Below are positions 24,219 through 51,916 of a DNA stretch of 64,000 bases, one piece after another. The notes under the pieces are model-generated. The model was not told the origin of the DNA. It was given only the letters and a program-made list of their open reading frames with translations, and did no database searches. Each line of letters begins with the position of its first letter. Positions within the stretch are counted from its first letter, which is position 1. The position numbers and the translations under genes were made by a program. This DNA is from Sarcomyxa edulis (lineage: Eukaryota > Basidiomycota > Agaricomycetes > Agaricales > Mycenaceae). The stretch lies in contig QUOL01000001.1 of NCBI GenBank assembly GCA_009761415.1, forward strand, positions 2,356,001 to 2,420,000, given 5' to 3'.

Positions 24219-24328
24219 AGTACTACTTGCCGGTGAGGCCGATGAACGGCAATACTCGTCCTTAGTAGGTGAATTGGCATGTCATGCAACATATTAGTAT
24301 AATATACCTCTCCTCATTATTCCAATCA

Positions 24329-27300: not shown

Positions 27301-30300
27301 GATCGATGCCATCAGAACTAGGTTTTAACCAGCCTGCCCGTCTTGCAATTTGTTCAATAGCCTTCATATCTGCTAGTTGTCTGGAAAACTTTGATCCAGG
27401 TGTCATGTATTCTTCAGTTGTAGTAGTTCCTGAATCACCATCTGCTAGAAAATCATCCATGCCAAAATGTGTTCCACTCATGTCATTGAGGGCATCATCA
27501 CCATCTCCAAATAAATGGTGGCCTTGTCCCGTGTTCTGTTTGTCTTTGGATTTCATCTTCATATTTGCATGGTAATCATCACGGGCGTCATTGCATTCGT
27601 ACCTGATATTGAAGTTGCTGATTAATTCGTTCTGATGTTGTGTGAACGGATGTGTAACAAATGCATGATCCCAAGACTGCATTTCTCTTTTCAGAGTTGT
27701 ACCAGATCGCCACGGCTTAAATAGTGTAAGCATTGTGCAACAATAGTATTCACGATCGCCCTGGTCACATCTTGGCAATGAACCACCAACAAAGTTCGGC
27801 ACTACATTGCGTCTAGTTTTCCGACATACAACCGCATGTGTATAATATTGAGGATGACTATCAGAAAATGCATATCTTTTACATCTGGAAGAGTTTTTAT
27901 TTTGATCATTATACCAGTCATCTACCACATCATCATCGTAGTCTTGGTACGGATCATCTTCAGTTGACATATAATATTCTTCATACTCATCATCTTCGAG
28001 TTCACTGTCCAATATTACTGTATCATCATCAGAGGAACTTCCCATATCACTCTGCTCATCGAGAGATGAGCGAAATTCATCCATTTCAGTTCGAGATCTT
28101 TTCTTCTTATCTGAAGTTTGTATCCATTCATATAATGACATGGTCTCATATCTTTCCGGCCGATAGACATAATCATCAACTATAGAAGATCCCACATAGG
28201 TTTTACCTTCCTTTTTGACAACGACCTTGTCTATATGAACATTAGTTATTTCTGAACCCTCTTGTTCCTCATCGTCTTCTGCCCATGATTGCATCACCTT
28301 GCCCACATAACTCTTCCACCAGAAAACAACAAAATTATGGCCTGTGTAGTGATCAGGATTACCCAACAAAAACATTGATGCCATTGGGCTCCCAATTTCT
28401 AGTTTTGAAGTCAATGAATTCACAATTTGGAGCATTAGACGACGTGCAACCTCTTTACGACTTGAAGTACCAGACATGGCATCTGTGTTCTTTTCAAAAA
28501 TGTGTTTGACAGCAGCAAAAACCTGATATGTTTTGAGACTTTGTTTAGTAACATAATCAGATATATAAGCCACGATAGCCTTGATAGCAGTCCCAGATAG
28601 TAAGCTAGTAACATCAGAGTTACATCTTAGGAGATAAGTCACCAAAGGAGTCAGGGTATTGATCATCGACTCCAGTTTTTTTACATGTAGGTACCCATCT
28701 TTTGGATCTACAGTTGACACATCAAAGATATCTCTGGGAAACCTTGCAGAACAACTACCATCTGGCTTTGTACAACCTTTAACCTCAAACTGTGCAGCTT
28801 TTTTGCGAGGTTTCTTTCCACCAGGTTTAAGTTCGGCCATGCTTGGACCGTTGACATCAGAAGCGTCTCGACAAGTATGTACATTAGAACGGAACATCAA
28901 GTCGTCAACAGTGTCTTGGAATCTACTCCGCCATGATATCAATTTGGCACACTCTGAACAATCCACACATGCATCTTCTTTACAACCAGTCGGTGGCATT
29001 TCAGGCAATGTTTGAGTCGGATTTTTGTAATCGGGATAAGGTAATGGCAATTTAGGCTCAATTATCTTATGAATACCTTTAGATGAAGGAGGTACATATG
29101 GAACTTTGTTCTTGATATCAGCCATAGTACCAGTCAAAAACTCTCCGACATGAACACTCTCAAGATATGCAATCATTTCCTTTTGGAAAGGAGAGTCTTG
29201 ATCCATCAAGCGGCGTCTGATTTCTTGTGGAGAAAGAGCACCTCGTATCCACAATAATAGATGCAAATGAAGTGTCAGTCTGCCTTGTTGTTCAACAGTC
29301 CCATAATATCCAGATGTTTTACCGTAAATTCCTGGGTGGTCTTCGTCTACACCTAGTACATGTTTTATAAACATACGTACCATGAAATCAAAGAATCTAG
29401 CTGCTGCCACTGGATTTCTTGCTACAAGCAAGTTTCTATCATCTGCAGCACGTAAGTCTGGCTTGAATGCCATTTTGGAATCTGCAAAGTACAGACATAT
29501 TGGGTGACAATTGTCTGCTGGAGAAAACGTGATAAACCAAGAAGGAGCACCAAGAAAAGATATAAGCGACCATATTTCGTTTCTCATATACTTCTTAGAT
29601 GTAAGAGATCCTTTCACATGGCCTCCCACATGATCTAAATCTTCAAGTAAGTTGAAACAAGCTTGCTCTTGTGAAGTTTCTGGCTTAACACGTTCACCAC
29701 CAATCATTCTAGTTGCAAGGTCTGTCAGAACATCAGGATTGACACTTAACAATCGATCAGAAATGTGAGAAAAATTTTGACGTTTAGCTAAGATTATACT
29801 TCCAGTCACTCCCCCTTTGATTTGCTCATGATTGAATGCTACCATTGGAAAATACAAATCCATCTGGAATCTCTTATCATGATGCATCAATAGATGTTTC
29901 TTTTGTGCAGCTTCACCCATCTTCTTGAGTATGAATTCATTTCCAATGCCTCCTAATCCATATGGGAATAACCACGGAAACATTTGAGGATAAGCTTGTG
30001 GATTATCGTACATTGACTGTGGTGTAGCAGAATGTCCTATACCTAATGTGTGTCCGTCTTTAGCAAGATGATCAAGAGCTCGGATTTTGATTGCATTCAT
30101 AGATAGATTTTCATACTCATCACCTGTAAGTCCATGTACAGTAAACGTACAAGGACCTGTTTGAGTACCTTCTTCAATCTCATTGTCGTGAGAACTCATA
30201 GCATCAGGTAGCTTGTTAGAAAACACACTTTCTTCCACCAATTTGCAATCAACCGTTACAGGTACACCACTTAAAGGGTAGGACTCTAGATTTTCTTGCG

Positions 30301-32317: not shown

Positions 32318-32384
32318 TGCTGCCGAAAGTTCAGAAGAAAATGATGATGGGAGTCCGAAAGAACCCTCATTTAGTCTGGACTTT

Positions 32385-32393
32385 CCTTATATA
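32385..32393 (-). promoter_or_regulatory. TATA box upstream of the Helitron frame
   Basis: TATATAAGG on the minus strand, about 68 bases before the first ATG at 32317. Confidence 0.45.
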
Positions 32394-32509: not shown

Positions 32510-32600
32510 CAAATAGTACAAGTATATATCAAGCCATCTTTAACTAATCGACAAATAGTACAAGTACATATCAAGCCATCTTTAACTAATCGACAAATAG
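32510..32600. repeat. 42-bp tandem repeat (about 2.2 copies)
   Basis: Units begin CAAATAGTACAAGTA at 32510 and 32552, with a partial third unit at 32594. The first two differ at one visible base. The right end overlaps the stop codon (32586-32588) of the neighbouring minus-strand gene. Confidence 0.85.
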
Positions 32601-35600
32601 AAACCCAAGACGATGCGCCCTGGAGCATTTGCACAACAATGCTTCCAAACCAAGATTATCGAAGCTAATGTCCGACCTTTCGGCGGGTGAAGTATGGTCT
32701 TCGATGAATGCCTTCGCCTTGATGAGACCTTCCAGACAGTCTGATGCCTGAGCCCGTTTAGGCCCCTTTTCAGTCATCTCCCGTGCTGGTATCAGACCAA
32801 GCAACTCTAACCCCCGAACAGCGCCTCGGTTGATTTTGCTGATAATATCGGCAACGTCTTCTATGGAAGGATGGTCGACTATGCCAGCGTAGCAGTAGTC
32901 GGCCGCCAAAAGGAATGCGGTAAGTGGGCCGACCTCCATGAACCGCTTTCGTGGGCGAGATGCTAGAAAGTATTTGTAACAATCCACGAAAGAAACGTTA
33001 CCATGTCCCACGAAGTCTGTCCAAGGTTGGGGTAATACGGTTGCGTCCCAATATCCAGCCGCAAGTCTAGGATGACGTGCGTAATTGGGGTTGCCGTAGG
33101 CCGATACATTGACCATATAAGATGGTGCTAGATGTGAATGGGTATCTACCTCTTCGTTCCATTCCGACACGCTGTTGAATAGCATAGTCCCCGACCTCGA
33201 GAATGTGGTGTTGAACGTAATGCCTCGCATGATTAATGCACTGAACAATCCTTGTCTAGAACGAACGACGTCGTCAGAGAATGGGCTATTCTTGCCGGAA
33301 AATCGATGTCGCGTGGGAGCATATTCGCGAAAGGGAAACAAATGGTCGCGAGATAGATGTACAGCACGCTGCAATGGCGTCATGCATTTAATGACCAGAG
33401 GTGGCCGGCCGGGTAGTAATGGCATGAGATTCTGAAGATAGGCCAACAGGTACCCCAACTTCCCAGTTGGTCCTTCTACGGTGGGATAGGTGATACGCTT
33501 GGTAGTAGGGTTGATGTATCTGATGATACTGTCTCTGTCATCGGTGAATGAGGCGATGTGTCGTGCGATCAACAGGAGAGAGTCTCGATGAGGCGATAGT
33601 GCAGAACACAAAGGGTGTGCCGTCAACTCCTCGACGAACGCGTCGAAAATACCAGGAGAAAGGGACGACGGAGTGAATGACGGGGCAGTTGACAGTACCA
33701 TCTTGCGAATATTGCCGTACGCCGCCCAGACAGACTCGAGGAGGAGCGCCTCCGGTCCACAGTTGGTGATCATCACCATCACGAACCACGATTTAAGTCG
33801 ATGGGTCAAATAAGGCGGGAAACCCAGCCAACATTGTACAATGTCGATCGTGAGCTTGAGAGTTGCTGTGTTTTCTTGTTCAGGACTGAGGTAGTTGTTA
33901 CGCGAGACGGAATAATGGTAAACGTCTCCCGGCAGAAGGTCGGAAAAATGGGAAGGATAGACGTCTCGGGATTTGATCCTGCTCTGTATCATGAGACGGA
34001 GCTGTTTGACTAGCCGTACTATCCAGCTATCTGGAACGACCTCGCCGGCTAAGATTTTGTTCGTCATGGATACACACTGCACATTTAGCCAATTCCACGC
34101 AGTGTATACGGCGAGCATGACGTCTCGACGAAGGCAACGGTTTGCGATGGCATTTTCAGCGACTCGAGTAATCTGCGCGTCCAAGACAGGCCAAAGAGAA
34201 TTGATGACACGAGTTGCGTCGACAGACGTAGGATTGTCGGATATTCTGGCCATGAATTGCCGAACGAAGGCGGTATATTCAGTTATGGGGACTGTGGTCT
34301 TGGAAAGCCTTGCACCGGATATGCACGCTTTCTCCACGGAGCGAAGTTCGAAGTTTATGTGAGTCAGTGTGAACTTGTTCAGCAATGGGATGTCTGAAAC
34401 AAGATGACAGTGAGCCAACCAGGCAACGAACATATTTCGATTACAAACACATACTAGATACAATATCATTGGTAGCTACAACCATGTCCATCCCGGTATC
34501 GTCAAGTCCGGAGTCGTCGAAATCGATGTCTGACGGTACACAATTGAGTGACACGACACAGGCTAGATATAAATTAGACTGACCAGACATAACTCGGTCA
34601 TAGGATACCAACTCTGTACGCTCGTTGTGCAAACCACCACTAGTATCCCCTGATAGCGATCATTAACGCAACACTATAACGGAGACAGGTCGACGAGGTA
34701 CATACCATGACCGAGATGGTGCGGTGTACGTTCACTCGGGGGACATTCATCGAGGTCGCTCGACGGTACGATTTCTCCTGTGACAAGGAATTCAGCTCAT
34801 TATCTTCACAGAAATTGCTCACACAGTGGTACCATTTGAGATATCACTCTGAACGATAAACCTCTTCCGTGGCCTTTGGACGCGTCTGTGTAATTTGGCT
34901 GTTGTAACAATACAATGAGTCGTCAATTTCACGCCGTTGAACTACAACACGTACCATTCGCATAGGTATCATTGCGACCCTGTAGTTCCTCCATCTCTTC
35001 GTCAGCATCGCTCGAAGGTACGACTTCGTCAGCTATTATTTTTGAGTGATTAGTTGCAATGAGACGAACGAACGTGAGACTTACCGGGAGGTACGTTCCT
35101 ACGTCCCGTATCCTTCTTCATAGACCGAGAAGGTTCGGAGACCTTTTCTCGCGGAACTGTGGCAATAGCAGCTGCATATATACGCGTGAAAAACACTGTA
35201 AGGGATAGGTACGAATTATAGATACCAGATTGAACTTCGTCGGAGTCTTCCGCATGTGTCGACGAGACGGTCGCATTACTTTTCTTCTTTGAACGCTTTG
35301 CCCTCTTGTTTGATTTGGTAACACCGATGTTCACTGCAAAAAATGAACATGAGTAGCCGCTATCGATTACAAAAAAAGTCACATACATTTACGCTTAGTT
35401 GCGACTAAAGCTATCATGAAAGGAGACCTGTGAGAAGGGATTCCCAAGCGACAATTGATACGACTTACTAGGCATTCGAACAGGCCGTTCGCCTTTGTAT
35501 AAGTCTATATCTGCATCCGCTGCCTTCTTAGTCTTTCTCTCCCGTTGCGACCTATCGGTGATATATCCAGCATCCTCCTTGTCACACCCGGCGGGACGGA

Positions 35601-37506
35601 TGTCGTTGAGAGATAAACCAGTCACCATGTTGAACACTATCGGGGCCGTGAGTCCTTTCGCGACAGATCTTGGGATAGTGGACGCAATCTTCTCATGATA
35701 AGCGGCCCAACTGACAACATGAGCTGCACGCAAGTCGTCCTGAGGTACAAGCGAGGGGAGGTCCTCCGTAATATGAGATGAGTTTGAGTTTGTTGCATGC
35801 GACCATCCAGGAGCTAGGTCCCAATGTCCAGTCGTTTGTCGAACTCCGTCAACTTCCAGAGTGACACTGTCGAGTATCTTCTGGCTGTCGACTTCGATCT
35901 TGTACTCTTCAGGGAGCTGGCGAACAGCATATAGAAATACCTCGAGCAGAGACCTCACCACATTCCGTGTGTGAGGCAACGGTGTAGCCAATACACCTCC
36001 ATCCGTCGCGTAGGTTGTTGGTACACAAAACCCAATGTCTTCTCTCGATTGACACCTTACACACAAATAAGTTAGATGTAGAGAGACCCGAATATGTATC
36101 GCACTCACCTGATATTGATCATTTCCGGGGGACACTTCAGCATCCTACCACGCGGTAACGCGCATATCGACATACGAGCGGTTCCCGAAAGCATGGTTCT
36201 TGAAACATAGTGGACGGTAGACAACCTGACAGCGTCAGGACGTACACGTTGTCCGGGTGGTGCAATGGGACCAGATGGACCATGTCGACGCAAGCCAGAA
36301 AAGCAGAGAGAGACGTGATTGCGAGTAGTGATATATAGCCCGAGCCCCAAAAGATGAAAGCGACCAGGATGATAGTCAGCTGGAATGTCGGAGCTGACCA
36401 CCATTTGTGTAAAATGACCAGCACTGTCTATCAGGTCCACATGTGCACCTCCAAAAAACCCCATCTCATTCGCGTTGGCTAGGAAAACAAATGATGAATA
36501 GGCGCGGCGGGGATGGAGGAAACGGATGGACGTACTCGAACCATACTCAGCAGCTGGTTGTATGTTGATCTGCACAGCAGAATAGCAGTCATTGCCATCC
36601 ACCCCGACAGTAGGCACATTCAACATGCTAGCATGAGCCTTCAGGTTGTCTCTGACCATCGCCGGCGCATGTTCCATGGACAATTTAGCTAACACCGAAC
36701 TGGTCTGTGACACATTACATATATGAACTATTCAACAAGTGATAAGATAACACTCACTCGTATGATATCTCTGCGCATCATAGAGGATTCTGTTTCACCT
36801 CCCTCAAGCTTGCTGCCCGCACAAGGAGACATGTATCCTGGTTCGTATTGAAACGACGTCCCTATGGTGTAACATCTCCCCCCGTCTGACAATTTCACTG
36901 GGGCGAGGGGCGTACTACCTTTTCGACCGGTGCGCTCCAGAGCGATGCCTCCCACGAATTTTCCAGAACCATCGTCGCTAGGCACGCCAGACGATCTGAG
37001 TTCCTGTGGTCCAAGGAGGACGTCTCGAGCACGAACCAAGTCGGCGATGGCCTGAGGAGGGAAATCTTCACTGTAGAGGAGTTGAGCATATATGCATGAT
37101 TTGAAAGTGAAACGATGCGTACGGTGCCAGGCACCAAGCAACGATTATATCGTCGATTGGATCACCAGTACCATGAACGTCTCGTGAGAACACAAAGTCA
37201 CCAGGCGACAGTTCGGACAAGCCTAACAAAGTGTGAGTGATCTATAGCACGACACGACCACCCGAACGCACCGAGTAGATCCATTGCAGCGTCGTCCCCG
37301 GTAGGGACATCCAAAGACGATTCAAACTTGAACATAGCCTTCATAGCTGACTTGCTGCGATCTTGAAGCATGATTATAACTTGCTTGGCAGTGGGGCATT
37401 GGGGATGGGTGCCTTGAAATACGTGAAAGGAAGGCATCCGACGGTCACGATGGATGTGGTTAGATGCTCCAAACAAAGGTCCGGAAGGGCGAAGGAGAGT
37501 AGACAT
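32586..37506 (-). CDS. Multidomain protein with TET/JBP-like Fe(II)/2-oxoglutarate dioxygenase core
   Basis: Read as one multi-exon gene. Exon 1 (ATG at 37504-37506) starts MSTLLRPSGPLFGASNHIHR; exon 2 has LSELSPGDFVFSRDVHGTGD, shared with the gene at 37948-38490. Later exons give YEPGYMSPCAGSKLEGGE, then the core GFFGGAHVDLIDSAGHFTQM (iron H-x-D), DYHPGRFHLLGLGLYITTRN and CFSGLRRHGPSGPIAPPGQR (distal His, then a candidate 2-oxoglutarate-binding Arg). This order fits the fungal TET/JBP-type dioxygenases, which oxidise methylated DNA bases. A basic segment (KSNKRAKRSKKKSNATVSS) and small acidic exons follow (34.5-35.4 kb, joins uncertain). A final exon of about 600 codons (34391-32586, joined as NDIVSNIPLLNKF) contains KRFMEVGPLTAFLLAADYCY and GAVRGLELLGLI and matches no domain I can name. 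It could instead be two genes split near 34.5 kb. Confidence 0.65.
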
Positions 37507-37947
37507 TGTTTCTTGATTAGCAGTTTGATAGGTGCAAGGTGGGACGTCGACAAGTTGGGATGACTTTTAACGTACTGCAAGAGGGACAGATCGATTCTAT
37601 CAACACAGCCCACACCCACAGTCAGGAGTCGTATAGAAGGAGTCGTCCTGCTCGACCATCGATCGATCGATCATCGGGTCCGACTACACCCAGGCATCGA
37701 CACAATACAGGGGGATCGACGCAAATAAAATCCAAACCCACGAACCGCCTGAGAAGTCGGTGACAGATGACTACAGGCTGCAAAAAGGAGTTGTATATAG
37801 AAAAACATCCAGCCCAATAAAATAAAGGGTAAGGTGTTGAAACAAGTGAAGATCAAAGCTCCCTACGAGCAGCATGTCTGGAAAATTTCAACGACCTGTG
37901 CTCTAACACCATCGACGGGCTAGGAGTTGACACGTCCCGATCCAGAG

Positions 37948-38490
37948 CTATGTACAGTCAGCGGAGCGCTCAACTAATAGTGAAGAAATACCCACCATCC
38001 GTATGGGGAGCCCCGAATATACCCATAGTGTAGACTACAAGCCAAAGTAAACACTGATGACTGTACGGAAAGCGAGACCACTCACTGGTGTTATCGTTCC
38101 AGGAACAACCCAATAAATCGGCAACATGTACATATATGGTACCCCCGTCCGTACAGTCGACATGACCGCGCCTCTCGGAGACGATGATCAACATCCTATC
38201 TTCGAGTGGATCGCCCGTTCCCAGAGCATCACGACTTAACACAACGTCACCAGCCAAAAGTTCGGACAGTACTGAGATGCATATAAGCCGGTGTCATCAA
38301 AAACGATTAATAAGAGCACACCTGAAGAAGTTGCAACATCGGCCCCATTGACGACGTCCGAACGGCTGTCAGAGACCACAGATGGGTTGGCTTCTCCAAA
38401 AGATAGGAATACTCGGTTCGACGTAGGAAACAGAGGATGGACACCTCTAAAACGATATAAGGGTTGTCCAAGTGCTGGGCTGTTCTCCAT
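37948..38490 (-). CDS. Small paralogue of the N-terminal domain of the TET/JBP-like protein
   Basis: The start at 38488-38490 gives MENSPALGQPLYRFRGVHPL. After one intron the protein reads VLSELLAGDVVLSRDALGTG, then DPLEDRMLIIVSERRGHVDC and GGTIYVHVADLLG, with a short C-terminal tail and a stop at 37948-37950. The L-S-E-L-x-x-G-D-x-V-x-S-R-D-x-x-G-T-G-D-P core matches the exon at about 37.2 kb in the next gene downstream on the same strand. No family name is known to me and no catalytic motif is evident. The presence of the same module alone and fused suggests that the two products work together or that the domain was duplicated locally. Confidence 0.5.
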
Positions 38491-38689
38491 TGCGGATTGG
38501 GGTATGGTGCGAGGCGGTGAGTGCAGAAGTATATTGAACTCCGAACGACAGAGGCGGAGAGCGTACGAACGATGAAGAGAATGATTCCAGAACAACCTAA
38601 GGGGTCTTCGCCAAGTCTAAGTTGCCAGGGGTGCATAGTAGGGCGAACACTGAAAAGAGCGGCTTGTAAATCGATCGGGTCAGGAGGAT

Positions 38690-39020
38690 CAGCATAAGAC
38701 CACGTATAGATGTAATGACGACAACAGGGAAAAGATGCCGGATTTTTCGACGACTTTCTCCTATTGACGTCACAAGGATAGGAGTTATGAGGATACGGGG
38801 AAGTACTAACCTGAACCCCCCAATAAGACGTCGTACCTGTTTCTACATATCGATGGTATATGGGGAATCTGTGGTTCAATTTGTCGTCAATAAACATTTT
38901 GGGGTGATTATCGTATACATAGCTAGGGCATTGACCAATGTGCCCCACAAACGACGGCCCCAACAGCCTTATCGCTCTGACTTTTTAAGTCGCCCTTTGG
39001 GCGTTGTCATATTCTTAACA
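38690..39020 (-). CDS. Possible small gene or leading exons of the minus-strand group
   Basis: A minus-strand block encodes LLGPSFVGHIGQCPSYVYDN, then HPKMFIDDKLNHRFPIYHRY and VETGTTSYWGVQ, followed by a plausible GTTAGT intron and SGIFSLLSSLHLYVVLC with a stop. An ATG at about 39016 (MTTPKGRLKKSER) is in a different frame, so either an intron is missed or a frameshift is present. The block is non-repetitive and reads like protein. No family is recognised. Confidence 0.3.
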
Positions 39021-39062
39021 CTTATTAGTTGTCAGGTATGTGTTTAGTTTGAATTGCAGGTA

Positions 39063-39379
39063 CTACTACTAATATAGAGACTACTATGAGGAGACGAACG
39101 ACTTACCGTTGAGTGGAGAGGTGGTGGTAAGAAAGAGAAACCTATAAGGCCAGACGCGAGTTGATGTTTCTGAGAGTGGCGCAAGCCTTTGACAAACAAA
39201 TAAGGGGTGGCTGAAGCCGGCCAAGCCGACCGCCTGTTTACGCACGCGTGCAAAGGCTTGCGCCACTCTCAGAAACATCAACTCGCGTCTGGCCTTATAG
39301 GTTTCTCTTTCTTACCACCACCTCTCCACTCAACGGTAAGTCGTTCGTCTCCTCATAGTAGTCTCTATATTAGTAGTAG
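39063..39379. repeat. Perfect 129-bp inverted repeat with 59-bp spacer (mirrored promoter candidate)
   Basis: The arms 39063-39191 and 39251-39379 are exact reverse complements by direct comparison over all 129 bases. Reading outward, each arm contains CAAAGGCTTGCGCCACTCTC, a TTATAGGTTTC element, a CT-rich stretch ending CTCCACTCAACG and a consensus splice donor GTAAGTCG. Each therefore looks like a promoter, leader exon and intron start. The palindrome lies between two divergent gene groups. Confidence 0.95.
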
Positions 39380-39675
39380 CCAGAATATATGATGAGCTAT
39401 AGATTGGACACGAATCCAATAAGATATACAAGCCAACAGGAACGCCTCAAGGGCTATTGTTGCGATTATGTACGCCAAATGATGTACTTAACGAAGTAAC
39501 TGAATATTGTTCGTCTGATATAGTAGCGTTCTCGACCTTACCAAGGCCAATGCGGTAGGGTGGGGGCGTGGTAGATGGGGGCGAGGTGGAGGGCAAGCTA
39601 GGGCAAGCGGTCTGACTGCGATCGGGACTTCGAAGCTGATGCACAGGACCTCCACATACAGAAGCACAATCAGAC

Positions 39676-42340
39676 ATGCAACGATCCAAACGCACGCACG
39701 CTGAAATCTCAAGTATTGCTCGCAGCTACATAGATGCAGAGGCGGAGGTATCAGATGACGAGGACAATATGTTGGAGGAGGATGCTGATGGGCAAGACGA
39801 CATGGAAACGGACGAAGACGCTAATGACGGTCAGTAAACCTGACACAGCCTACAAAGTGAGTACTTATGCTGGAGGACAGGAATCGACGCCGATAGTAGC
39901 ATTCCACCTCTCCACTTTCAAAACGTCGATGCAGACTTGTTTCTGCAGGAAGCGGAAGAAGACGCCAACGCGATAAGAGACCGGTATAATACGCTTTCAA
40001 AGACACGTGAATCCAGCGAACAAATCGACGATCTGGAGGACAGGATGATTAGAGAACGGACAGACGAGGACGACCCAGTATGGGCAATTAATGTATATGT
40101 GAGCAAAGCCATTATTATCACCCCCGAATCTGTAAGTCTCATGGATCAACACAGCTTGGTTCTGAGGACCGGATCGTTGTAGATTTTGCCCGCATCGCCG
40201 TAATTAACAGGACAAACGGACTCTTGACTGGGATTCGGTCTGTATTCCGAAGACCGAGCATACCAGGTCGAGTTTACATCGAGGCCGATTCTCACTCCAC
40301 CGTCCAACTGGTTTTCAGACAACTATTTCCCCTGGTGTCTACTACATCCATCGCACGTGTATCGAACGAAGACGTATTGCAATTGTTCCGAATGAAGGTA
40401 TCTTGGGTAGATGTGGAGAGATTTCCTTGGATCAGAGTCACGCATGGGACGTATAAAGACGACGTGGCAATGACGGTCGATGAAGAAGCAGGAACGGATG
40501 GTATAACCGTTCGTGTCATTCCCAGAATGTCAATGAACGGACCCACAGTCAAAACTCGTGAAAGAGCTGTCAAGCGACGTAAAGCAAAGTCCAGACAGAG
40601 AGCTGATCCGCGCCTCTTCAATCCATCCGAATGGCCATCCGCGGATCGACGGTCTACGGTTTTTTACCTGGGGAAAAAGATCTATGTGGATGGACTGTTG
40701 GAGATGGTACTACCTCTATCGCACGTCAAGCCCCTCGTCAGTGTATCCGTTGACGAATACTTGTCTTTCAACAACATACAAAACATACACCCGCTTCGTC
40801 TCGACTTCTTCAGAGATCGCATCGCCAGCCTGCGAGAAAGACTCATACAGAGTAGTCTGGAAATAGGAGATCGAGTAGTTGTGGTAGAAGACCGTTCTGC
40901 ATTGAACGTCGGGATGATAGTCAACTTCCGCTCCGACGACACGGACACCGTCGTGATACGGAAATTGGTCTCATCGACGACATTTGAGACGGAAAGACGT
41001 TTGCTTCGGAAGGCTTTCAGAATTGGAGATTTGGTCAAAGTAATGGGCGGAGAAAACGACGGCAGAGAGGCTTGGGTAGTGCATGTAGAGAAGAATAAGG
41101 TCAAATGCGCGTACGTTGTCAAACACAACATGGACGATATATCTACACCCGTAATGCACGGGCGCAAGTCTGTGTCTATCAAGACAGCGTCGGATCAGAT
41201 CACAGAGGTACGCCTTATATCTATAGCTGTGTTGACGTCTCAACTTATTGACCGGGCCAATGCAGTTCAGTTCAGATGAATGGGCACTGAAACTACTGGA
41301 CCCACCTGTCGTACGTTCGCAGCCAGAACCTGACAATTTTCGCATGGTGCCGACACCTCTCTATCCCACCTTACTGCAACCGACAAGCGAGACAATTGAT
41401 GAAGGTTTACTTCGCGAGCGTGAATCTGTTCGCCTCGAAGGCACGCCTGTAACAATTGCCGCCAACAATAATTCTAGTTGCCTCATTGCCCGACAATACA
41501 AGGGGTATCATGGCTTGATCAAAAGTTATCGGAACGGCAATGCTGTAGTCGAATTGTCGGCATCCATTGCTCAACGCAACAGTGTAGTTCGAACAATACC
41601 TTTAGAATATCTGTGGCATTTCGGGTAAGCACTTCCACATGTTTCGTACTCAAACGATATCTCATAAAATGTACTAGGACTGTCATCCCTGTTCGCGAGA
41701 ATGATCATGGGCTGCCCTTGATCTTACGCAATCTGCAGGCGAATGTCTTACCAGAACAATCGTCGACGGCCTCATCAGCAGCCACCCCCTTGTGGACTCC
41801 AGAAGAGTACGGTTCAGGTGCAGTAGAACCGGCCTGGGATCCCAGAGATGCTATTCCACAACTACCTGGTACGTTGCCATATATCACATATGCACGTTGC
41901 TTACAGTCACTTTAGTACGCCTCGAAAGCTGGCTAGAACACCCGAAAATGCGCCAACATGAAGATATTGTGGTCACATTTGAATCGATTGAGGGAAACAC
42001 GAAGAGGGGTAATGTTCGATACAAAGGCGCTATGAGAGACGGGGAAACGAGTATATCTGTCCACACTGCCAAAACACCTTCGAACGCCAGCGAAAAAGTG
42101 TCGATAGCTTCGCTGAAGCCAGTACATCCTGGGAAGATCGGGGACAAGGCGGTAGTAATAGATGGCGAAGATGATCAGATTGGCATGCGAGTGGTACTCG
42201 TGTCATATATGGGGTTTATTAGACGTTGGACGGTGCGCAAAGTTCTTACGCCTCTCGAAGCAGCCAGAGGAGCATCGAGTCCCACTGAAACTTTGTCGTT
42301 ATATGCGACGGACTTAGTACTATGCGACACAGTAAGATAA
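39676..42340 (+). CDS. Spt5-like protein: acidic N-terminus, NGN domain and several KOW-like segments (799 residues)
   Basis: Exons 39676-39829, 39881-40098, 40155-41207, 41266-41624, 41678-41868 and 41916-42340 sum to exactly 800 codons. The N-terminus is basic then acidic (SDDEDNMLEEDADGQDDMET), as in Spt5. An NGN-like domain follows (about 118-205: VWAINVYLGSEDRIV, GLLTGIRSVFRRPSIPGRVY, IEADSHSTVQLVF). KOW-like segments include WIRVTHGTYKDDVAMTV (about 216), EIGDRVVVVEDRSALNVG (about 358), FRIGDLVKVMGGENDGREAW (about 413) and KIGDKAVVIDGEDDQIGMRV (about 730). RADPRLFNPSEW matches the linker in Spt5-like proteins. It lacks the C-terminal hexapeptide repeats of true Spt5 and lies in an accessory region, so it is a divergent paralogue, not the essential elongation factor. 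A leader intron from the palindrome donor (39335/39336) to an acceptor at 39661 is possible. Confidence 0.75.
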
Positions 42341-42542
42341 ATGTCACGAGTAGTATGCATAAATAACAATGCATTGTTTGCTAGGGGAGAGAGTCTTGTG
42401 TGCATAAATATTCGATACCAGGTACGCCCCATTGGATTGAATTGAATGAATAGGGGAGATATAGGGGATAGGAGATGACGATGAGGACCTGAACACTGTC
42501 GTTCCTTATCATTAACCACCCACTACAAAGGCAGGCCGTTCA

Positions 42543-44322
42543 ATGCAGTCAAGGGAGACAATCCCCGATGGTCGATGCATCAACCCTGCGCTACTCTCGC
42601 TCGTTCCAAACACAACTGCACATCACTCGACAAGAACATTAAACCCTACAGAGACTGTGTCTACTTGTACGCCAGGCCACGCGAATGTGCTCTGGCAAGA
42701 GGAAACATGTGGCGACGAAACGGTGCGGAGGAATGATGAAGGTAAGCACGCTCTTGATCGAACAAATTCCAGGACTAATAGGCACAGAGTAGAAGACCAA
42801 ACAGACACGAGGCCAGGCCACCCGGACATGCTCGAGGAAGAGGGACTATACGGCGACGAAACGGGGCGGAGGAACGACAAAGAAATGGTGCAGAGGAACG
42901 ACGAAGGTAAGCACGCCCTTGACTGAGCAAATCGCAGGACTGACGTGGTACATAGTAGAAGACCAAACAGACGCGAGGCCATGCCACCCGGACATGCTCG
43001 AGGAAGAGGGACTATACGGTGACGAAACGGGGCGGAGGAACGACAAAGAAATGGTGCAGAGGACGGACATGCTCGAGGAAGAGGGACTATACGGCGACGA
43101 AACGGGGCGGAGGAACGACAAAGAAATGGTGCAGAGGAACGACAAAGGTAAGCACGCCCTTGACTGAGCAAATCGCAGGACTTACGTGGTACATAGTAGA
43201 AGACCAAATAGACACGAGGGGCAATTCAGAACGTGAAGGCTCTTCGAGTGATTTTACATCAGGTGAGCATGCATGATCATGACTTAGAGGCATGTTCCTT
43301 ACACAAGAGACAAGAAGAACGAACAGTATATTCCAATAGACAAGGATCGTCGGTTGAATACAGCTCATACAATGGCACAGAACAACCGACAGACCCAGAT
43401 GTCTCAGGTGATCACGCACAATCAGAAGGATGTTCGTTTACCGCAGGTATCTAGCCACAAACGTCAACGAGAACGACAAGCTGAACACAGTTCATTTATT
43501 GCTAACAGAGCTTACCCCGACAATATTATCCGTTCCCAAAGGTACATGACAACCTAAGTATGAAACACTCGATTTTTCCTAACATAATCGGACCCATCAA
43601 TGTAGATACAAAGGAGAGCATCGACCTGTCCGACCACAAAGGTGAGCTTGCTATTTTCAAATTCATTGACCGTGCTTATGATTTGGACAGGATCCTCACT
43701 CATATACGAATATGTTTCCGCCGACGAGGAAGAGGAACATACGGATATATGCTCTGTTTCAGACAAGATCCAACCAGTGTCCCTCAAACTAGACTCCCTG
43801 GGATCGACACACAGCGATACGCAAATGAGGACCGTACAAGATTGGAGAAAGAGCATATGGCAAGAGAATGGCGAAGATAAACAGAGTAAAGGGACGTCGA
43901 CGGGAGGTTTACCTGATGATACGGAGGCAATGGAGGCAGGCTCGATGACGTCTAGCTTGAACGCATCAGGTAAGCCGCCGATTATCTGGTGTTATAATAT
44001 CTGACCGGCAATCTCAGGGTCACGGCGTTATGACGAGGTATCACGTCAGGAAATTGGTTGGCAACTGATCAAGAACGTGAAGGATTTAGAGATACAACGA
44101 CGCCACATACTCGACGCTTTAGAATCCTTGGACAACACTGAAAGGAACCATTCCCCTGATATGACTCCCAACACCAAGACAAGAGAATTGCTCACCAGTA
44201 ATTTAGTGCATCACCAACAAGCTCAACAGGCAGCCATGACCGACTTGCTTGTGTTCAAGTATCCACTGCCAGATTTCAATAGGTTGCTTGACGATACAGC
44301 AAGGAAAAGAAAAAGAGTATGA
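42543..44322 (+). CDS. Repeat-containing hypothetical protein with intron-bearing tandem repeats
   Basis: The gene starts MQSRETIPDGRCINPALLSL and ends PDFNRLLDDTARKRKRV at 44322. Its centre is a tandem array in which each unit has an exon (VEDQTD...PDMLEEEGLYGDETGRR, NDKEMVQRNDEG) and a short intron (GTAAGCACGC to ACATAG). The C-terminal part is polar, with EIGWQLIKNVKDLEIQRRHI and LVHHQQAQQAAMTDLLVFKY, probably helical, and ends in a basic cluster. Exons between 43.23 and 43.7 kb are uncertain. It lies about 200 bases downstream of the Spt5-like gene on the same strand. Function unknown. Confidence 0.5.
42741..43215 (+). repeat. Minisatellite of 165-166 bp units, with an internal 75-bp duplication
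   Basis: Splice donors GGTAAGCACG at 42741, 42906 and 43147, and the motif GGACATGCTCGAGGAAGAGG at 42824, 42990 and 43065, show two full unit steps (165-166 bp) and one 75-bp (25-codon) in-frame duplication in the middle unit. Confidence 0.85.
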
Positions 44323-44543
44323 TACTACAATACTACAATATGGTTCGTAGCTTCAATCCAGTCATTCTGCGTTTTTGTTACCGACCTAAGCTTTGCGATG
44401 ACGTCAATGGAAAAAACATACCAGAAATCCCGACAACTTTCATGTATTGACGTCATGACTCTTGTCAGGACTCACATTTCACACGCGATTTCTGAGACTG
44501 ATATGGAGGAGGAAAGAAGAATGCCATTTCAGGTGTCAGACTA

Positions 44544-47500
44544 CTACGGCTCGTAAAGACCCAGTACCGCTGCCCACTGAACATTGCAGCTTGCAGCCCA
44601 TATGCCTGCTCGCTTTGGCTGCGAATATGATGACACTGTATAAGCTACCAGAACGGTGGAATACTTTGGAGGTTCTTCATCGAACAATGGCAGTAACTCG
44701 GCAATGTCAGCCAGATCCGTGTAATCGATGGGAGTAAGACGTCCATCATATATAGGAACTGTATTCAAAGTAAGTGTACTGCAATATATCAGAGAGTATA
44801 ATAATCTCACCTATATCGTCTGAATCTAGAACGAACTTTATGGAAGAGCTGCTTTCAGCCTGCTTGCGTTTGGTGGGCGACACAGAAGCCCTAGAAGGTG
44901 TGGATGCAAACATGCCAGGGGGTGCAGATGTGCTGCTAGTGCCTCCACCACCTTGACAAATATAAATTAGGTTGATCAGTCAGATCTAGGAAGAGAGAGA
45001 TGAGACTCACCACCACTACCAGATTTTGTCGCAAATGTCAAAGCAGCCATAGACATCTGAGCTTGCATCTCTTGATGACCAAATACAGAGCATAGGACTG
45101 CTACAAATCGCTCCCATTCCAAAGTCAAGAGCGTACCTTCTATCCTCTTTGAGGGAATTCCAACGGTGGCCTTTTCTGTAAGATAGGACTGGTTGACTGT
45201 GATGACTGACAAGCAAATAGCGGCCCCCCCTGTTCTCATATAGAGAGCAAATCTAGAGTTGTTCGCCATCAGAGGATGATTACTCAGAAGGCGGGGATCA
45301 ACTCTGGAAAGGTTGACATAGTTTCCATGGTTCTGAAAGGTGACCGCCTTGTATAACAATCTGGAATATATATATATAACTGAATGAACGAAAGTAAGAA
45401 TGGAAGACTTACTTGGACATATGTTTATCGGAATTGTCAATTATTCCAGAGTATTGAACTTGACAACCAATGCGTTCATCCCATGTTGAAGTCAAGGTTC
45501 CACGTCTTTAGATGAAGGTAAAAACATAGGTAAGAATGTGTGATATTGGAAGCAATGAAACGAACACACTTCAAGGGTGTGAGACCTTTGTACGATTTGA
45601 GTAGAGCAGGGTCTGCCCGTTCCTTATCGAAGACCTCACAGACTTTAGGAATAACACTGGAGACAAGATTAAATATGTATTCAAAGACGAAAGAGAATAA
45701 CACACATACATTTTGGTGTCCATCAAATCTTGGAAAAGAGCCGTTTTTGGTTTGACCTTAACGGCAGATCTGTGATGAAATATTAACAAACAAGCATTAG
45801 TTGTAGATGGTAGGATACATACTTTGGTCCAGGTACGATGACTTCAGAGTCACTGAAACCTTCTTCCTTGTCCATTTCCTCAGACCTTTGGGGTTTAGTC
45901 GCTGTGACCTTCTTTTTAGGAGTGCTAACACTGAACGAAGAAACCTGAATATATGACAAGAGAAACTGTAGGGCGGAACAAACATACATGAATGGAGAAT
46001 CTTCCAGTGTAGGTTCTGGAACATCTTCCTTCTTGACTGGTCTATGATACAAGTGAATAATAGATCGACCACCTATATATAAAAGTGACTTACATAAACT
46101 TGAGTACTTTGACGGGCGAAGATTTCTTGACAGCAGACTTCGAAGGGGTAGTAGGAGCCCTTGAGTTATAGATTAAGACACGAAGTACAAGACAAAAGTA
46201 TAAACTAGATGCTCACTGTGAAGGGCGTTTTTTTGGAGAGACCTTGCTAGTGGTCTCTGATATTTTGAACTTCTTGGAACTACGCATCGTGAGTTCCAGA
46301 TAAGCAATAATAATCAATATAAAGCATACATTTCATCTTCTGAAGATGCATTATCAGGGGATACATCAGTTTGAAGTCGCTTTTGACCTCTAGACTTGAT
46401 ATCAGAGCTGAATGTAAGGGTGATGACAAAAGAACTTTACCTGGTAGCCACAGGAGTCGATGGTTTGGTTGGCTTGGAGCCGTGATACATGCTGATGGAA
46501 AGTCAATATATATAGATGTTAAACAAAGCCTATACCACTTACGAATCGTCAGGATCAAGAGGAACAATACTTCGGAGAGACTGTATCAGTCACGATATTA
46601 TAAGTATGATACTAGACTTGATAACATACCCATCAGATTCGTCTGACGATAATTCTATAACTCTGTGGAAACTATTTAGTATGAACCTTTCGAGAATGAA
46701 GTATAGACGTACGATTTGTCCTGGACAATGACTTTGGATTTAGATGGCAAGGTCGTTGTGACATCAATGTCAAGTATGCTGGCAATCTTCTTAGCCGGTG
46801 ACGTTCTAGAAGAGGTTTTCTTTTGAACGATGGGTTTCTTGGTCGAAGGGGTGACAAGGCTAAATCAATCGTTAGATAGGATAGAAAGTTTTCACCAAAG
46901 ATTAGATTGCACGTACTTGGCAGGTAATGTATCATCTCCAGGTAATGGAATACGCCTGAGACTACCATATTTCTTGGTAGGGGTAGGGCTGAGAGAGCAA
47001 TAAGTGAAGAAGATATATATCCATCAGAAAAATCACGAACGTTCCAGGGACAGTGTCTTCGTCGGCAATAACACGTCGAAGTATTCGTTTTTTCGGTGTA
47101 GGGCTGTAATAGAAAGTCAATGAAAAAAAAGGGAAAGAATGATTATTGAAGATGACATACGTGATAGGAGGTTCATCTTCTACTTCACTAAGCTCCTGCT
47201 CGACGTTAGCCTCTTCAGTATCAGAGACTGGTCGTTCACTATAATCAAACATTATCAGATGTACATACAAACATATATTGCTAAGCCTACCTGGCTTCTT
47301 CTCCATCGGATGGCAGCTGCTCTCTATAAATGACGTGAATCCATGCGACAATGAAAGGTCTGACAAATAAACACATACTCGGCATCCATAGGATCATCAG
47401 CTACTTCCAGTTCCACATCGTCGTCTACAATAAAACCTTCAAGGTCTTTATCAAGGTCTTCCGGTTCAAATCTTTCCTCCTCTTCTTCTTGATCTGATTC

Positions 47501-47606
47501 GGGAGGGGGTGACTTGGGTCTGACGAAGGGAAATGAACATTCAAGATGGATATAGGTGGAATAAAAGATCTCACAAGCGTCGCTTAGCAGCAGAACGAGG
47601 AGGCAT
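44544..47606 (-). CDS. Uncharacterised fungal family protein, many short exons, acidic and basic N-terminus
   Basis: The start at 47604-47606 gives MPPRSAAKRRLRPKSPPPES, with an acidic part (SDQEEEEERFEPEDLDKDLE) and repeated P-T-P-x-K-K motifs (PTPKKRILRRVIADEDTVPG, PTPTKKYGSLRRIPLPGDD, VTPSTKKP, PTTPSKSAVKKSSPVKV) over more than a dozen small exons. The C-terminal half is folded-looking: ADPALLKSYKGLTPLKCV, NHGNYVNLSRVDPRLLSNHP, AAICLSVITVNQSYLTEKAT and the final PKYSTVLVAYTVSSYSQPKR with NVQWAAVLGLYEP. From memory, similar C-terminal segments recur as multicopy hypothetical proteins in Agaricomycetes. The charged tail with TPxKK motifs suggests a nuclear or DNA-associated protein (inference). 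Exact exon borders are approximate. Confidence 0.6.
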
Positions 47607-48174
47607 TGGAGGCAAAGTCAACAATTTAACGTATCAGAAGGATATCGCTATTTAAAGGATATCATTTAGGGCAGGGTATCCACCTTTAAATGAGAGTATA
47701 CATTATATGCAAAGATTATAGATTGATAGACCTCATAGTAGCATGATCGACGCTAATAAGCTCCGTTCGGAGCCGAATGGTTGTATCAATGGAATCAAAC
47801 CGGAATCAGGTAATAAATGTAAGCAAATGCTAAACGCGTGATCTGCCAAGCATTATCTGATTGGTCTGGCATATATTGAGTCCGTTCGTATCGAAACCGA
47901 CCACTACTGGATGTTGGTAATTTACAATGATGAGTCAATAAATGTGCATAATCGCTTGGAGCAAGTGTAACCATTTACTTATAGGGTATACGTACCAGGT
48001 ACAGTGAGTCATATGCTTTCACATATGCAAGACAACCACATGGAACTTGCGGGGGCCGACAGGATATTTACTTGGCAGATGAATTGGGAGAAGGTGTTGT
48101 TCGAGCGACTTGAGCATTCAAATTATTCGGTGTGAAATATTGATACAGACTCACCTTTCGAATACAACATTATA
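47607..48174. other. Divergent intergenic region
   Basis: About 570 bases between two divergent uncharacterised genes. It is A/T-rich, with no repeat or RNA gene recognised; presumably it contains both promoters. Confidence 0.5.
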
Positions 48175-49403
48175 ATGGACGGGCATTATAACTTTGCAGA
48201 TGCTAGTAAGTCAGATATCCCACTGCATTGGCTATGTATACAACTAAATAATCAGGAGCAAAACTGGAGGAAATATCCATGGAACGGACAACAAACTCCA
48301 CCAAAGCAAACAAGCCTTCGATACAATTGAGCACAGTTACTGTACGCATTTTCTTGACTCAGTTCATGATTAGCATGGATAATGATATCTTCTCCAAGTT
48401 TGACGACATCTCTTTCATGTCATATGAAAACCCAACGACTGGTCGACTTGGAAGGTCGACGATTGGTGAAGACAGTTTGGATCAAACAGAAGAGGTCGTA
48501 CTGAGGGTACAAGGTATACTGTGTGAGAAAAGTCTTCCTCCAGTACAGCAAAGGTGAGTAACATTACGTTCTCTTGAATCAATAATTTGCTAATTTGTCA
48601 AAGAGCTAAAACTAGCAAAAACGCCTTCCTGCGTCAACATGTTGGCCTAACCGGACTAGGAACTGATTCGTTTGCGACTAGTATCAGGAATCTGAGAGGC
48701 ATCCATGCTATATTCATGTCTTCATATGAGAAAGATGCTGTACGTCCATGGAATCCACCAACCTACTTGGAGCACGGCGAAACTATCACGGCGTCGTGCA
48801 GATATTTCACTCCCATTCAAGAGTCGCCCAACGAGGTATCTGTTCCATTTGGATACATGGTCGATCCAGCAGGGAGGTTACAGGACATGATGGGTGATAT
48901 ATTTATACACGGATCTGATAATAATGTCCTTTATTATGGATATAAAGGGAGTAAAGAGGGAAAACATAGGTGAGTCGCTCAAACTCCATTTAAATGTCTT
49001 GATTGTACGACTTACTGGTAATAGCTACACGGAAATTAATCCGAGTATGTTTAGTTTGGGGGATATAGTCGAAATACAGATCACATTTCGAGCGCTTCCT
49101 CTGAAAAAGGACAAAGTACTGGTTCATTGCACCTTGCAGGCGTTGACATTGTTGGACAACAACCACAGTCTGGTACGTCTTTAGAATCCTTCAAAATTCA
49201 ACTTATAAACTAACGATACATGTAACAAGGCGGCAAGAGCAGCGAGGGCAAACCAATGTATCGCACCTAGTAATCTAATCTTACAGAACAAAATGAAACG
49301 CAAGGTCGGATATGAAGATGAAGATGAAGTAGTAGTCGCTCGTATGGGAATGGCTTTGTTGAATATAGGAGATGGGAAGAGTAAAAGGATGGATATGCAA
49401 TAG
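48175..49403 (+). CDS. Uncharacterised fungal family protein (five exons)
   Basis: The start at 48175 (MDGHYNFADA) is followed by RAKLEEISMERTTNSTKANK, then PSIQLSTVTVRIFLTQFMIS. Further segments are NAFLRQHVGLTGLGTDSFAT, PWNPPTYLEHGETITASCRY, FGYMVDPAGRLQDMMGDIFI and SYTEINPSMFSLGDIVEIQI. The C-terminus is basic/acidic (KMKRKVGYEDEDEVVVARMG) and stops at 49401-49403. All four introns have GT-AG ends and keep frame. The pattern resembles a multicopy Agaricomycete family I recall only as hypothetical. It is mainly beta-strand-like, with no enzyme motif. It is divergent from the gene at 44544-47606, and the two families may travel together. Confidence 0.65.
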
Positions 49404-49527: not shown

Positions 49528-50986
49528 TTATACGTACCGATGTATTCTATCGTATAAACCCTCCTCTACACACGTTTGAAGCAAACTATCATCGAAGTTT
49601 TCCATAATGTATCCTGTAACAACCGAATGATGAAAAGGGGTGCTTGTTGAAGGAATGTATGGTGCACAACGGGATCTAACCATCGATGCATAGGTGGGAT
49701 AATCAATTTTAGGAAGTTGTAGAGGATGGGGTGAGCGGTTGTCCATATCAAACGCCTGCAAGTTTGGAAGAATATCATAATCCGGAGGTCGACGAGTTAA
49801 TAACTCAAAGAAGTCGGTGGTAAGAGGCAATGAGTGCAGTCCAAGATATATGATAGATGGTGATTGGAGAAGGAAGGATACGACTTGAGGAATCGAAGGA
49901 GATTGGTCCTGTAAAATGAACCGTGAAAGTTTGTTCCGAAAGTTTGACCGATGGTGAAGGTCCATCATAATACTATGTGGCCACTGCGAATTTGGGATAG
50001 ATTCGACCGAAATGGACAATCTGTGGAGCGACGGCAAAGTGAGAGGTGAAAAAAACAGCCCCCAACGTCTTGTACGCAAAAATGTTATCTCCAGGTTCTG
50101 CAACGCTGAATGAACAATACTTCCAGAAGGGAATCTATCGACGTCCTCCCATTGCTCTATATGCAATTGGGCTTCCTCCAATCGCTCCAATTGCGATAGA
50201 AAATGTGGACCTGTGGACGGTAGACTGACGGTGCGAAGCTCCAATTGAACAAGTTGGGACCAGGGAATCCTCATGAGGTCTTGTTGTAACACGTAGGATG
50301 TGGAAATCCTCAAGTGTATAAGTTTTGACGCAGATTCCAACAAAGTGATAGGAATGTAAATGTCGAAGTACCGGATATGCCTGATCAGTGGACGGTCACA
50401 GGGAGTAGCAGATGTTAATTCGAAGTACTCCAATAACGGGTATTGTTCGGATGGCGAATACAGAATGGAAAGATAATTGTCATCATTGTGACTTGCCACA
50501 AGTCGTATTTTGACGGATCGATAGCGATGAAAAGAAGCGATTATGGATTTGTAGAAGAATGGTGTGTCGGCTGAAGTTAAGATGAATATGTCCATGGGTA
50601 GGATACGGGAGTTCTGGCACCACATGTTGAACAGTGCTGTAAACTGTGCAGGATAAGCCCTGCGGGATTTTATGTGCAGTTGAAAACTGGTACTCCACAA
50701 CGCAGAAAATCCAAATGCCAACTCCCTCCATAAACGGCAAACCTGAGTCACTACAAGGAGTGATATGATAGGCTGTTGAAAGGCATAATAGCCCACCGAC
50801 ATGTCAAAAATCTTGCCGAGGATTTCATTTGGCAAGTTATGAATAAAATCGCTTTGACCAAAACGAAAGAACCGGTGTTGCGCAGTTGTTAAACATATGC
50901 TGTGTCCATCAGTGGCTCTGTTACATGCAAATGGAATGTAAAGACACAATCAAAAGCATGTGATAGAAAACGGCTCACCGATGCAT
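49528..50986 (-). CDS. F-box protein with leucine-rich-repeat-like C-terminal region
   Basis: Substrate-recognition candidate for an SCF ubiquitin ligase. A two-codon first exon (MHR, start at 50984-50986) joins to ATDGHSICLTTAQHRF, replacing a longer in-frame start inside the intron. The F-box is HNLPNEILGKIFDMSVG...LLVVTQVCRLWRELAFGFSA (about residues 27-75). The rest has irregular leucine-rich segments (LVQLELRTVSLPSTGPHFLS, LTLPSLHRLSISVESIP), typical of the large F-box family in mushrooms. It ends DRIHRYV. The substrate cannot be inferred. Confidence 0.85.
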
Positions 50987-51199
50987 GATGACTGTCTCTA
51001 GTGATGAAAATACATCAAAGAGAGATCGAAAAGAAAAAGGTTATCGGCTTTGAGGAATAACAATGACAAAGTTGAAGAGATCAGAACGCCACAAACCTCT
51101 AAAAATAACAAGTATAAATATGGGGATCATTATAAGCGGCACTTGAAATATTGAAGAAGCCTATTGAAGTCTCTGTCACTACTCAGTATCATTCTTACC

Positions 51200-51916
51200 A
51201 TGGACACCGATTCGAAAGATGACATCAAACCTTTGGAACAAATGCAAAACACCATCGGTCAGCTAACTCAACAAAATCAGTTCCTATTCAATCTCTGGCA
51301 AACACAGATCAAAATAAATGCCGATCTTCGAAAAGACATAATCACGGTCATTGGACAACGTGATGGATTTCAGAATGCAGGGGGTCGTACAAGAGTGGAA
51401 ATAGCAGAGTTGAAGTCCAAGATAATCAGGTTGAAGACCGATTTGAAAGACAGCAAACTATCGACTGTTATACAAAACAACATGGTAAGACTTAACTCAG
51501 ATTCTTATTCGATGGTTTCGTTAATTATCAGTTCAGATGGCACTGAACCAAAACAATGCAGCGACTGGAGACATAGAACCCCGCATGCAAAACGTATTTG
51601 ACGTTTTGACTATGTGCTGCTACAAAAACTGAAGTTAAATCATATCAGATATCGACAACTATTGTCGTCGACACAGACGATGAAAGTGAAGAAGAAAGAG
51701 ACCCGAATGACCAGGTTCAGACCCATTTCCGGGAAAAGACATTTGGTACGTCAAGCAACATTAGAAACATTCAAATCTCTAGTTCCTGACGATATCCAAG
51801 AGTTGCTCCCACATATAGGAAATTCAAACAGCAGACCAATATTTGTCAGAGACACGGTAAACAGTTTATTTGTAACAAGGCAAAGAGATGAGTCACCAGA
51901 AATAGAGTACGAATAG
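51200..51916 (+). CDS. Small coiled-coil hypothetical protein
   Basis: The start at 51200 gives MDTDSKDDIKPLEQMQNTIG, then QLTQQNQFLFNLWQTQIKIN and VEIAELKSKIIRLKTDLKDS, a probable coiled coil (about residues 10-95). After introns come VVDTDDESEEERDPNDQVQT and a C-terminal exon VPDDIQELLPHIGNSNS...QRDESPEIEYE ending at 51916. An upstream in-frame ATG at 51164 is possible, but the sequence there is leader-like. No family is recognised. Confidence 0.5.

Follow-up and report, generated by a model that had tools for sequence, protein, structure and literature searches.

The 64,000-nucleotide stretch of the Sarcomyxa edulis genome analysed here, referred to as the window (contig C1, positions 2356001-2420000), contains a Helitron2-type rolling-circle transposon of 28,061 bp (24225-52285, minus strand). 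The element carries a gene for an Spt5-like protein and, oriented divergently across a palindrome, a gene for a TET/JBP-like dioxygenase of the 2-oxoglutarate (2OG)-Fe(II) class. Comparison of copies establishes the element, its ends, its gene content and its mobility, as well as the status of both genes as cargo, and the substitution patterns of the two genes indicate purifying selection. The genome searched comprised 35.6 Mb in 40 contigs, and whole-genome counts of loci are lower bounds. Exon models were made by hand splicing and with a spliced aligner, from genomic sequence only, without transcripts.

Element ends and Rep-helicase

The limits of the element were placed by shared termini, unrelated flanks and collinearity with a second copy (C34:679812-704053), which matches the window element end to end. 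The left terminus, ACTTGCCGGTGAGGCCG, is common to the window, C10, C11 and C34 copies, and the right terminus, GGACTCGTAAC, to the window, C11, C17 and C34 copies; in both cases the flanks beyond are unrelated. Neither terminus is visible in the C2 copy. In the window the element lies with its 3′ end on the left (24225-24261, minus strand) and its 5′ end on the right (52275-52285, GTTACGAGTCC on the minus strand), and the dinucleotide AC is found at both outer edges. Inverted copies of GGACTCGTA are present at the two ends, the 3′ copy lying 28 bp inside the end. The inner 3′ repeat agrees with the 5′ repeat at nine of nine positions in C10, C11 and C34 and at seven of nine in the window copy. 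Both repeats were observed in C11 and C34 (9/9) and in the window (7/9), the 3′ side only in C10 and the 5′ side only in C17. This arrangement fits the asymmetric terminal inverted repeats of Helitron2-type elements, whose inner 3′ copy lies about 20-40 bp inside the end according to the accessible text of PMC5148889. A possible 6-bp stem at the 3′ end was not significant as a terminal hairpin (z -0.94, 37 of 200 shuffles equally good), and Rfam searched at the gathering threshold over 24200-52300 gave no match.

Next to the 3′ end is an uninterrupted open reading frame of 2685 amino acids (24332-32386, minus strand) with matches to DUF6570 (2.1e-37), Helitron_like_N (7.8e-34) and PIF1 (5.6e-25). 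A Rep (HUH) domain and a PIF1-like helicase are joined in this single protein, a feature expected of Helitron2, and HLH and YISDY sequences are visible in it, which we take to be the corresponding Rep motifs. The original prediction described a module at 32586-49403 and proposed a mobile or selfish unit on a carrier other than a KDZ element. The gene group is real and the carrier is indeed of another kind, a Helitron whose Rep-helicase frame ends just outside that interval; the interval itself is only the middle of the element. A KDZ or other DDE carrier is ruled out, since the Rep-helicase and the shared termini account for mobility. The gene group is thus carried by a giant Helitron2-type transposon that is presumably still autonomous today.

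By eye, the C-terminal part of the Rep-helicase (24332-25402, minus strand) resembles a cysteine-protease or deubiquitinase domain; no such domain was found in it with Pfam. Domains of these types are known in Helentrons (PMC9741609, as far as its text was available).

The Spt5-like protein

The Spt5-like gene (39676-42339, plus strand; exons 39676-39829, 39881-40098, 40155-41207, 41266-41624, 41678-41868 and 41916-42339) encodes 799 amino acids, with an acidic N terminus, an NGN domain, KOW1, a KOW4/5-like segment and one motif, EPAWDP, like those of the Spt5 C-terminal repeat region (CTR). Matches to NGN (E=1.2e-7) and KOW1_SPT5 (E=5.8e-7) were above the Pfam cut-off. The KOW match fell just short of it in the spliced protein (E=1.5e-4) and exceeded it in the single exon, while KOW4, KOW5 and Spt5_N, the acidic N-terminal region (E 0.022), were matched below it. 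The best match in the Protein Data Bank (PDB) was a solved Spt5 (8.6e-23, residues 17-441), and matches to solved sequences at E<=0.001 numbered 14, of which 13 are Spt5 proteins and one is plant RDM3 (6e-10), an Spt5-like protein also known as KTF1. On this sequence evidence the assignment of the plus-strand gene to Spt5, made in the original prediction, is solid. Among the best 7992 candidates scored in a protein-database search there was a single match, a Mycena Spt5; the same kind of search with the Spt5-like model of C2 (residues 108-600) gave none.

The protein is conserved between subfamilies along its entire length, including the C-terminal part. EPAWDP aligns to TPAWSP of the Mycena protein and was found in the window and all four other Spt5-like models. 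In the stretch of host Spt5 that was examined, the C-terminal array has TPAW three times and TPGW once. The T of TPAW is the phosphorylatable residue, and at its position the element motif has an acidic residue, which is compatible with a constitutive phospho-like state of what is one motif only. In fission yeast, phosphorylation of the Spt5 C-terminal domain restricts heterochromatin (PMC10659198, in the text available). By analogy, EPAWDP suggests an elongation factor that may be set to anti-silencing.

The dioxygenase and the palindrome

The dioxygenase gene (35469-37506, minus strand) was modelled with exons at 37272-37506, 37123-37222, 36758-37070, 36109-36704 and 35469-36055, together with a basic tail that is outside the model. 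The spliced protein of 610 amino acids contains H304-x-D306, H357 and R376, which are invariant in an alignment of six sequences, the window protein and five relatives from the same genome. This alignment covered six of 12 loci; C38 (two stops), C17:9.5k (partial and largely the same as C21) and C10, C11, C17:320k and C34 (the C2 subfamily) were omitted from it and all checked for the motif separately. H-x-D...H...R with equal spacing was present in all 11 models from other loci, giving HxD in 12 of 12 overall.

When a profile of the family was compared with a profile of the Tet_JBP matches of the same genome, the H, D, H and R residues fell in register (E 0.026-0.069). The score of the true comparison was 20.3-20.5, and that obtained with the reversed profile was 11.6-12.6. 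The genome's seven Tet_JBP matches, all exons, are themselves below the Pfam cut-off, as was what the same search picked up in E. coli, and are therefore a weak yardstick. Of the TET/JBP dioxygenase claimed by the original prediction, the H-x-D...H...R pattern was borne out at every locus and the Pfam profile match was not; the profile-profile comparison is suggestive of a link to TET/JBP. Because Pfam does not recognise the protein and the profile match is modest, we call it TET/JBP-like and not TET/JBP. A PDB sequence search returned nothing meaningful. There was no match to the dioxygenase alignment among the 7998 best protein-database candidates scored, an absence that carries little weight, or among viral contigs, which were searched with this alignment only. 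AlphaFold predictions for a single dioxygenase exon (pLDDT 37.7) and another single window exon (pLDDT 33.4) were of low confidence, and the former was uninformative.

Between the minus-strand dioxygenase gene and the plus-strand Spt5-like gene lies a palindrome (39063-39379), an arrangement that was correctly described at the outset. Aligned to its own reverse complement, it agrees at 296 of 328 positions. An inverted repeat occupies this place in all six copies, with arms matching at 156-160 of 188-193 positions in the other five. As these five are near relatives, they and the window provide two independent cases only. The window and C34-type palindromes are unrelated except for a stretch of about 20 bases. 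Arms that stay alike despite a changed sequence would be expected from a shared promoter need or from arm-to-arm conversion, and the palindrome is probably a two-way promoter.

Copies and gene pairing

Five further copies in the genome (C2, C10, C11, C17 and C34) form a second subfamily. Its gene content, order and orientation are those of the window element, as judged by comparison with the C34 copy. Both ends are present in the window (28,061 bp), C11 (24,110 bp) and C34 (24,242 bp) copies, and the C2, C10 and C17 copies run off contig ends. Three contigs (C2, C10 and C17) end inside such elements, so that the copies are break points of the assembly. Over whole genes, protein identity between the window element and the second subfamily is 72% for the Rep-helicase (C34 frame from 680001), 60% for the dioxygenase (C2), 43% for gene B and 40% for the Spt5-like protein (C2).

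Besides the host Spt5 gene on C36, NGN-KOW sequences were found at C1 (the window), C2, C11, C17 and C34, and as a short piece at C10, where only the first piece of the Spt5-like gene precedes the contig end. The dioxygenase gene adjoins all six of these loci. The families therefore co-occur outside the window, within further elements of this genome, and the same pair in the same arrangement at six loci rules out a chance pairing.

The dioxygenase gene has 12 loci (15 match rows), six of them with the Spt5-like gene. At the six without a detectable Spt5-like gene, gene B adjoins in every case, genes E and F are present at four (C38, C22, C1:4.06M and C21) and a Helitron_like_N match at five (all but C4). 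From these counts the Rep-helicase, gene B, the dioxygenase and genes E and F seem to form the core gene set of this group of Helitrons, and the Spt5-like gene seems to have been added in two subfamilies. An NGN-KOW gene in every element of the group is ruled out by the slot of the Spt5-like gene on C21 (57501-60500), where the aligner score was 72-119 compared with 1102-1323 for true copies. This slot holds other reading frames, two of which were tested and had no Pfam match above the cut-off, and cargo may accordingly vary between elements. Another 2OG oxygenase in the slot, which was also considered, had no Pfam support.

The C11 and C34 copies are 96-97% identical on both sides of gene B and the dioxygenase gene and only 75-79% identical over them. 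From this drop in identity, the block of two genes seems to have been exchanged as a unit between subfamilies.

Selection

Rates of nonsynonymous (dN) and synonymous (dS) substitution were estimated by Nei-Gojobori counting, one pair at a time, with stop codons left out. The C34 and C38 models were excluded, except for gene B and the Rep-helicase of C34. For the dioxygenase, C2 versus C11 gave dS 0.96, dN 0.075 and dN/dS 0.078 (four C11 stops omitted). The ratio was 0.15 for gene B and 0.23 for the Rep-helicase (both C34 versus C11). For the Spt5-like gene it was 0.17 (C2 versus C11) and 0.15 (C2 versus C17), values that rest on few changes since dS was 0.013-0.038. Between subfamilies the proportion of synonymous differences (pS) was near saturation for the compared genes, at 0.75-0.81, and the nonsynonymous proportion (pN) was 0.18-0.44, with pN 0.27 and pS 0.81 for the dioxygenase and pN 0.44 and pS 0.75 for the Spt5-like gene. 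These substitution patterns show purifying selection on the dioxygenase and Spt5-like genes. Cargo in the form of decaying baggage is ruled out by the dN/dS values and by pN far below pS, although some copies are broken.

Possible functions

With moderate confidence, we favour a reading of the sequence data in which the dioxygenase and the Spt5-like protein form an anti-silencing kit of the Helitron2 element. The dioxygenase would oxidise methylated bases in copies of the element. Its partner, the Spt5-like protein, would associate with elongating RNA polymerase II (Pol II), possibly together with Spt4 of the host, and keep it processive through a long, repeated and silencing-prone element; alternatively, it might block transcription-coupled silencing. 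Such a unit would mark DNA and steer polymerase, as originally proposed with base J as a still speculative analogy, with catalysis on DNA, Pol II binding and anti-silencing as its predicted activities. Matches at the level of the C5-methylase family occur at three genome loci, and the dioxygenase may therefore have something to erase. More tentatively, and with some doubt, it can be proposed that the transposon took over a universal Pol II elongation factor and paired it under common regulation with a DNA-base dioxygenase, so as to open its own chromatin and drive its own elongation. The pair would then be a eukaryotic counterpart of element-encoded NusG antiterminators.

Several observations weigh against an anti-silencing pair. 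Six of the 12 dioxygenase loci (C38, C4, C22, C1:4.06M, C17:9.5k and C21) have no NGN-KOW match at E<=0.1, so that the two proteins are not obligate partners. The element protein lacks the repeated TPAW-type CTR array and has the single EPAWDP, and at 40% identity it evolves faster than the dioxygenase (60%) or the Rep-helicase (72%). Stops interrupt the dioxygenase models of C11 (four) and C38 (two) and the Spt5-like models of C34 (two, in a model with forced introns) and C17 (one). The window dioxygenase has no Pfam match of any kind at E<=10, the Tet_JBP profile included, and in the modest profile comparison shuffles did equally well in one of 100 cases for the core and six of 100 for the full alignment.

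Some of these observations suit other explanations. Operon-specific NusG paralogues such as RfaH and LoaP offer a model in which the Spt5-like protein serves the element as a processivity factor of its own, allowing Pol II to complete long element transcripts, and the dioxygenase acts separately. An 8-kb Rep-helicase frame in a 28-kb element, the retention of NGN-KOW architecture with loss of the CTR array, and dioxygenase genes with no detectable NGN-KOW partner at half of their loci all suit this model. Rep-helicase frames of 2669-2685 residues are nevertheless also seen in related elements without NGN-KOW (C22, C38 and C21), and the palindromic intergenic region between the two genes suggests that they are controlled together; we consider a separate processivity factor unlikely. 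It is improbable that the protein is a decoy titrating Spt4 or Pol II and so weakening, in trans, the silencing or defence transcription of the host: the missing CTR array and fast evolution agree with this, but an NGN domain would suffice for a decoy, and conservation between subfamilies extends over the whole length, C-terminal part included.

Passive capture, in which the genes are cargo without a role in the life of the element, appears to us very improbable. Gene capture by Helitrons is well known (accessible parts of PMC4289320 and PMC10799480), and the window copy has what looks like an example in its F-box gene. Against passive capture, two subfamilies agree in their genes and in gene order and orientation, and between them pN lies far below a nearly saturated pS. 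As for the enzyme, its lack of a Pfam match and weak profile score would also suit a 2OG-Fe(II) hydroxylase acting on protein or RNA and not on DNA. We think this unlikely, if slightly less so than a separate processivity factor, because the catalytic H, D, H and R are in register with the genome's Tet_JBP matches and because a very divergent TET/JBP protein has a precedent in an Agaricus Helitron2 (PMC12730594, in the text available).

Relation to known systems

TET/JBP-bearing Helitrons and captured genes in fungal Helitrons are already published; a transposon-borne Spt5 paralogue is, as far as our searches reach, new. Kojima (2025; PMC12730594, in the text available) described a Helitron2 of Agaricus bisporus with TET/JBP and proposed that transposon TET/JBP proteins erase silencing. 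Like the window element, this transposon encodes a very divergent TET/JBP-like dioxygenase, which was recognised by structure and not by sequence. That enzyme is of Kojima's PE type, the hallmark of which is HxE, in contrast to HxD in all 12 models of the window family, which lies outside that type. The terms Spt5, elongation, NGN and KOW are absent from the main text of PMC12730594. HELPO1 elements of Pleurotus (accessible text of PMC4289320) are likewise Helitrons of a fungus, and their cargo genes are reported to occur in Helitrons only. They carry one to four cap genes, and the largest helpo1.3 copy is 12.2 kb compared with 28,061 bp in the window. That text contains neither Spt5 nor elongation, and its one mention of a dioxygenase concerns a xanthine dioxygenase fragment that a non-autonomous A. 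nidulans Helitron has captured. FoHeli elements of Fusarium also have an asymmetric terminal inverted repeat, with the inner copy about 20-40 bp from the 3′ end, but are about 5-11 kb long, and cargo of Spt5 or dioxygenase type is unmentioned in the available part of PMC5148889.

Spt5 and plant RDM3 share NGN followed by KOW with the element protein, which differs from them in being transposon-borne and in having one EPAWDP and no repeated CTR. VANC proteins of VANDAL transposons are transposon-encoded anti-silencing factors that bind specific noncoding regions of their own transposons (PMC10398659, in its accessible part); a similar release from silencing by the window element is our hypothesis only. 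The available main text of an elongation-factor survey (PMC13289920) contains neither helitron nor transpos, and a title and abstract search, with most subscription papers outside its coverage, turned up no paper on an Spt5 carried by a transposon.

A selected Spt5 paralogue inside a transposon would, within the reach of these searches, make this the first mobile element with an elongation factor of the Pol II core machinery to its name. The presence of TET/JBP genes in fungal transposons is established, and the question is what else they need. Such a paralogue also offers a testable handle on transposon escape from transcription-coupled silencing and, as a natural Spt5 variant that keeps NGN-KOW and has lost the CTR array, a means of telling the functions of Spt5 apart.

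Other genes and repeats

Gene B (32589-34475, minus strand) is a 629-amino acid open reading frame of unknown family with 13 genome loci and no Pfam match above the cut-off. Between it and the palindrome, a short piece resembling a dioxygenase exon (38177-38278, minus strand) is perhaps a partial duplicate, 34 of its amino acids aligning with the dioxygenase region of C34 at 56% identity (E 1e-7); a longer spliced match there scored 127, near aligner noise. Tandem repeats with units of 166 and 75 bp (42717-43147) lie in a stretch that has no match in C34. Gene E (approximately 44544-47617, minus strand; 10 genome loci), with collinear matches in C34, has a long acidic N-terminal part of many exons and a conserved C-terminal part without a Pfam match; its identity to C34 is 70% at 45009-45362.

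Gene F (48279-49403, plus strand), of about 320 amino acids and unknown family, has collinear C34 matches of 44-62% identity, 10 loci (11 match rows) and no Pfam match. In the C2 copy it is split by about 24 kb (C2:1481674-1505933), and another element has seemingly inserted there. An F-box gene (49528-50949, minus strand; F-box-like, 6e-8) is present in the window copy and absent from C34, where the flanking matches are only about 0.5 kb apart; it is probably a passenger or a later insertion. Beyond it are gene G (51155-51598, plus strand), a coiled-coil-like open reading frame with 46% identity to C34 over 110 amino acids, and, near the 5′ end, subterminal tandem repeats with a 101-bp unit (51996-52214) that have a counterpart in C34. 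At the opposite end, the 3′ end of the element is situated some 6 bp upstream of the start codon (ATG) of a neighbouring gene (23844-24281, minus strand), which resembles that of a dCMP deaminase and whose first exon has no significant Pfam match.

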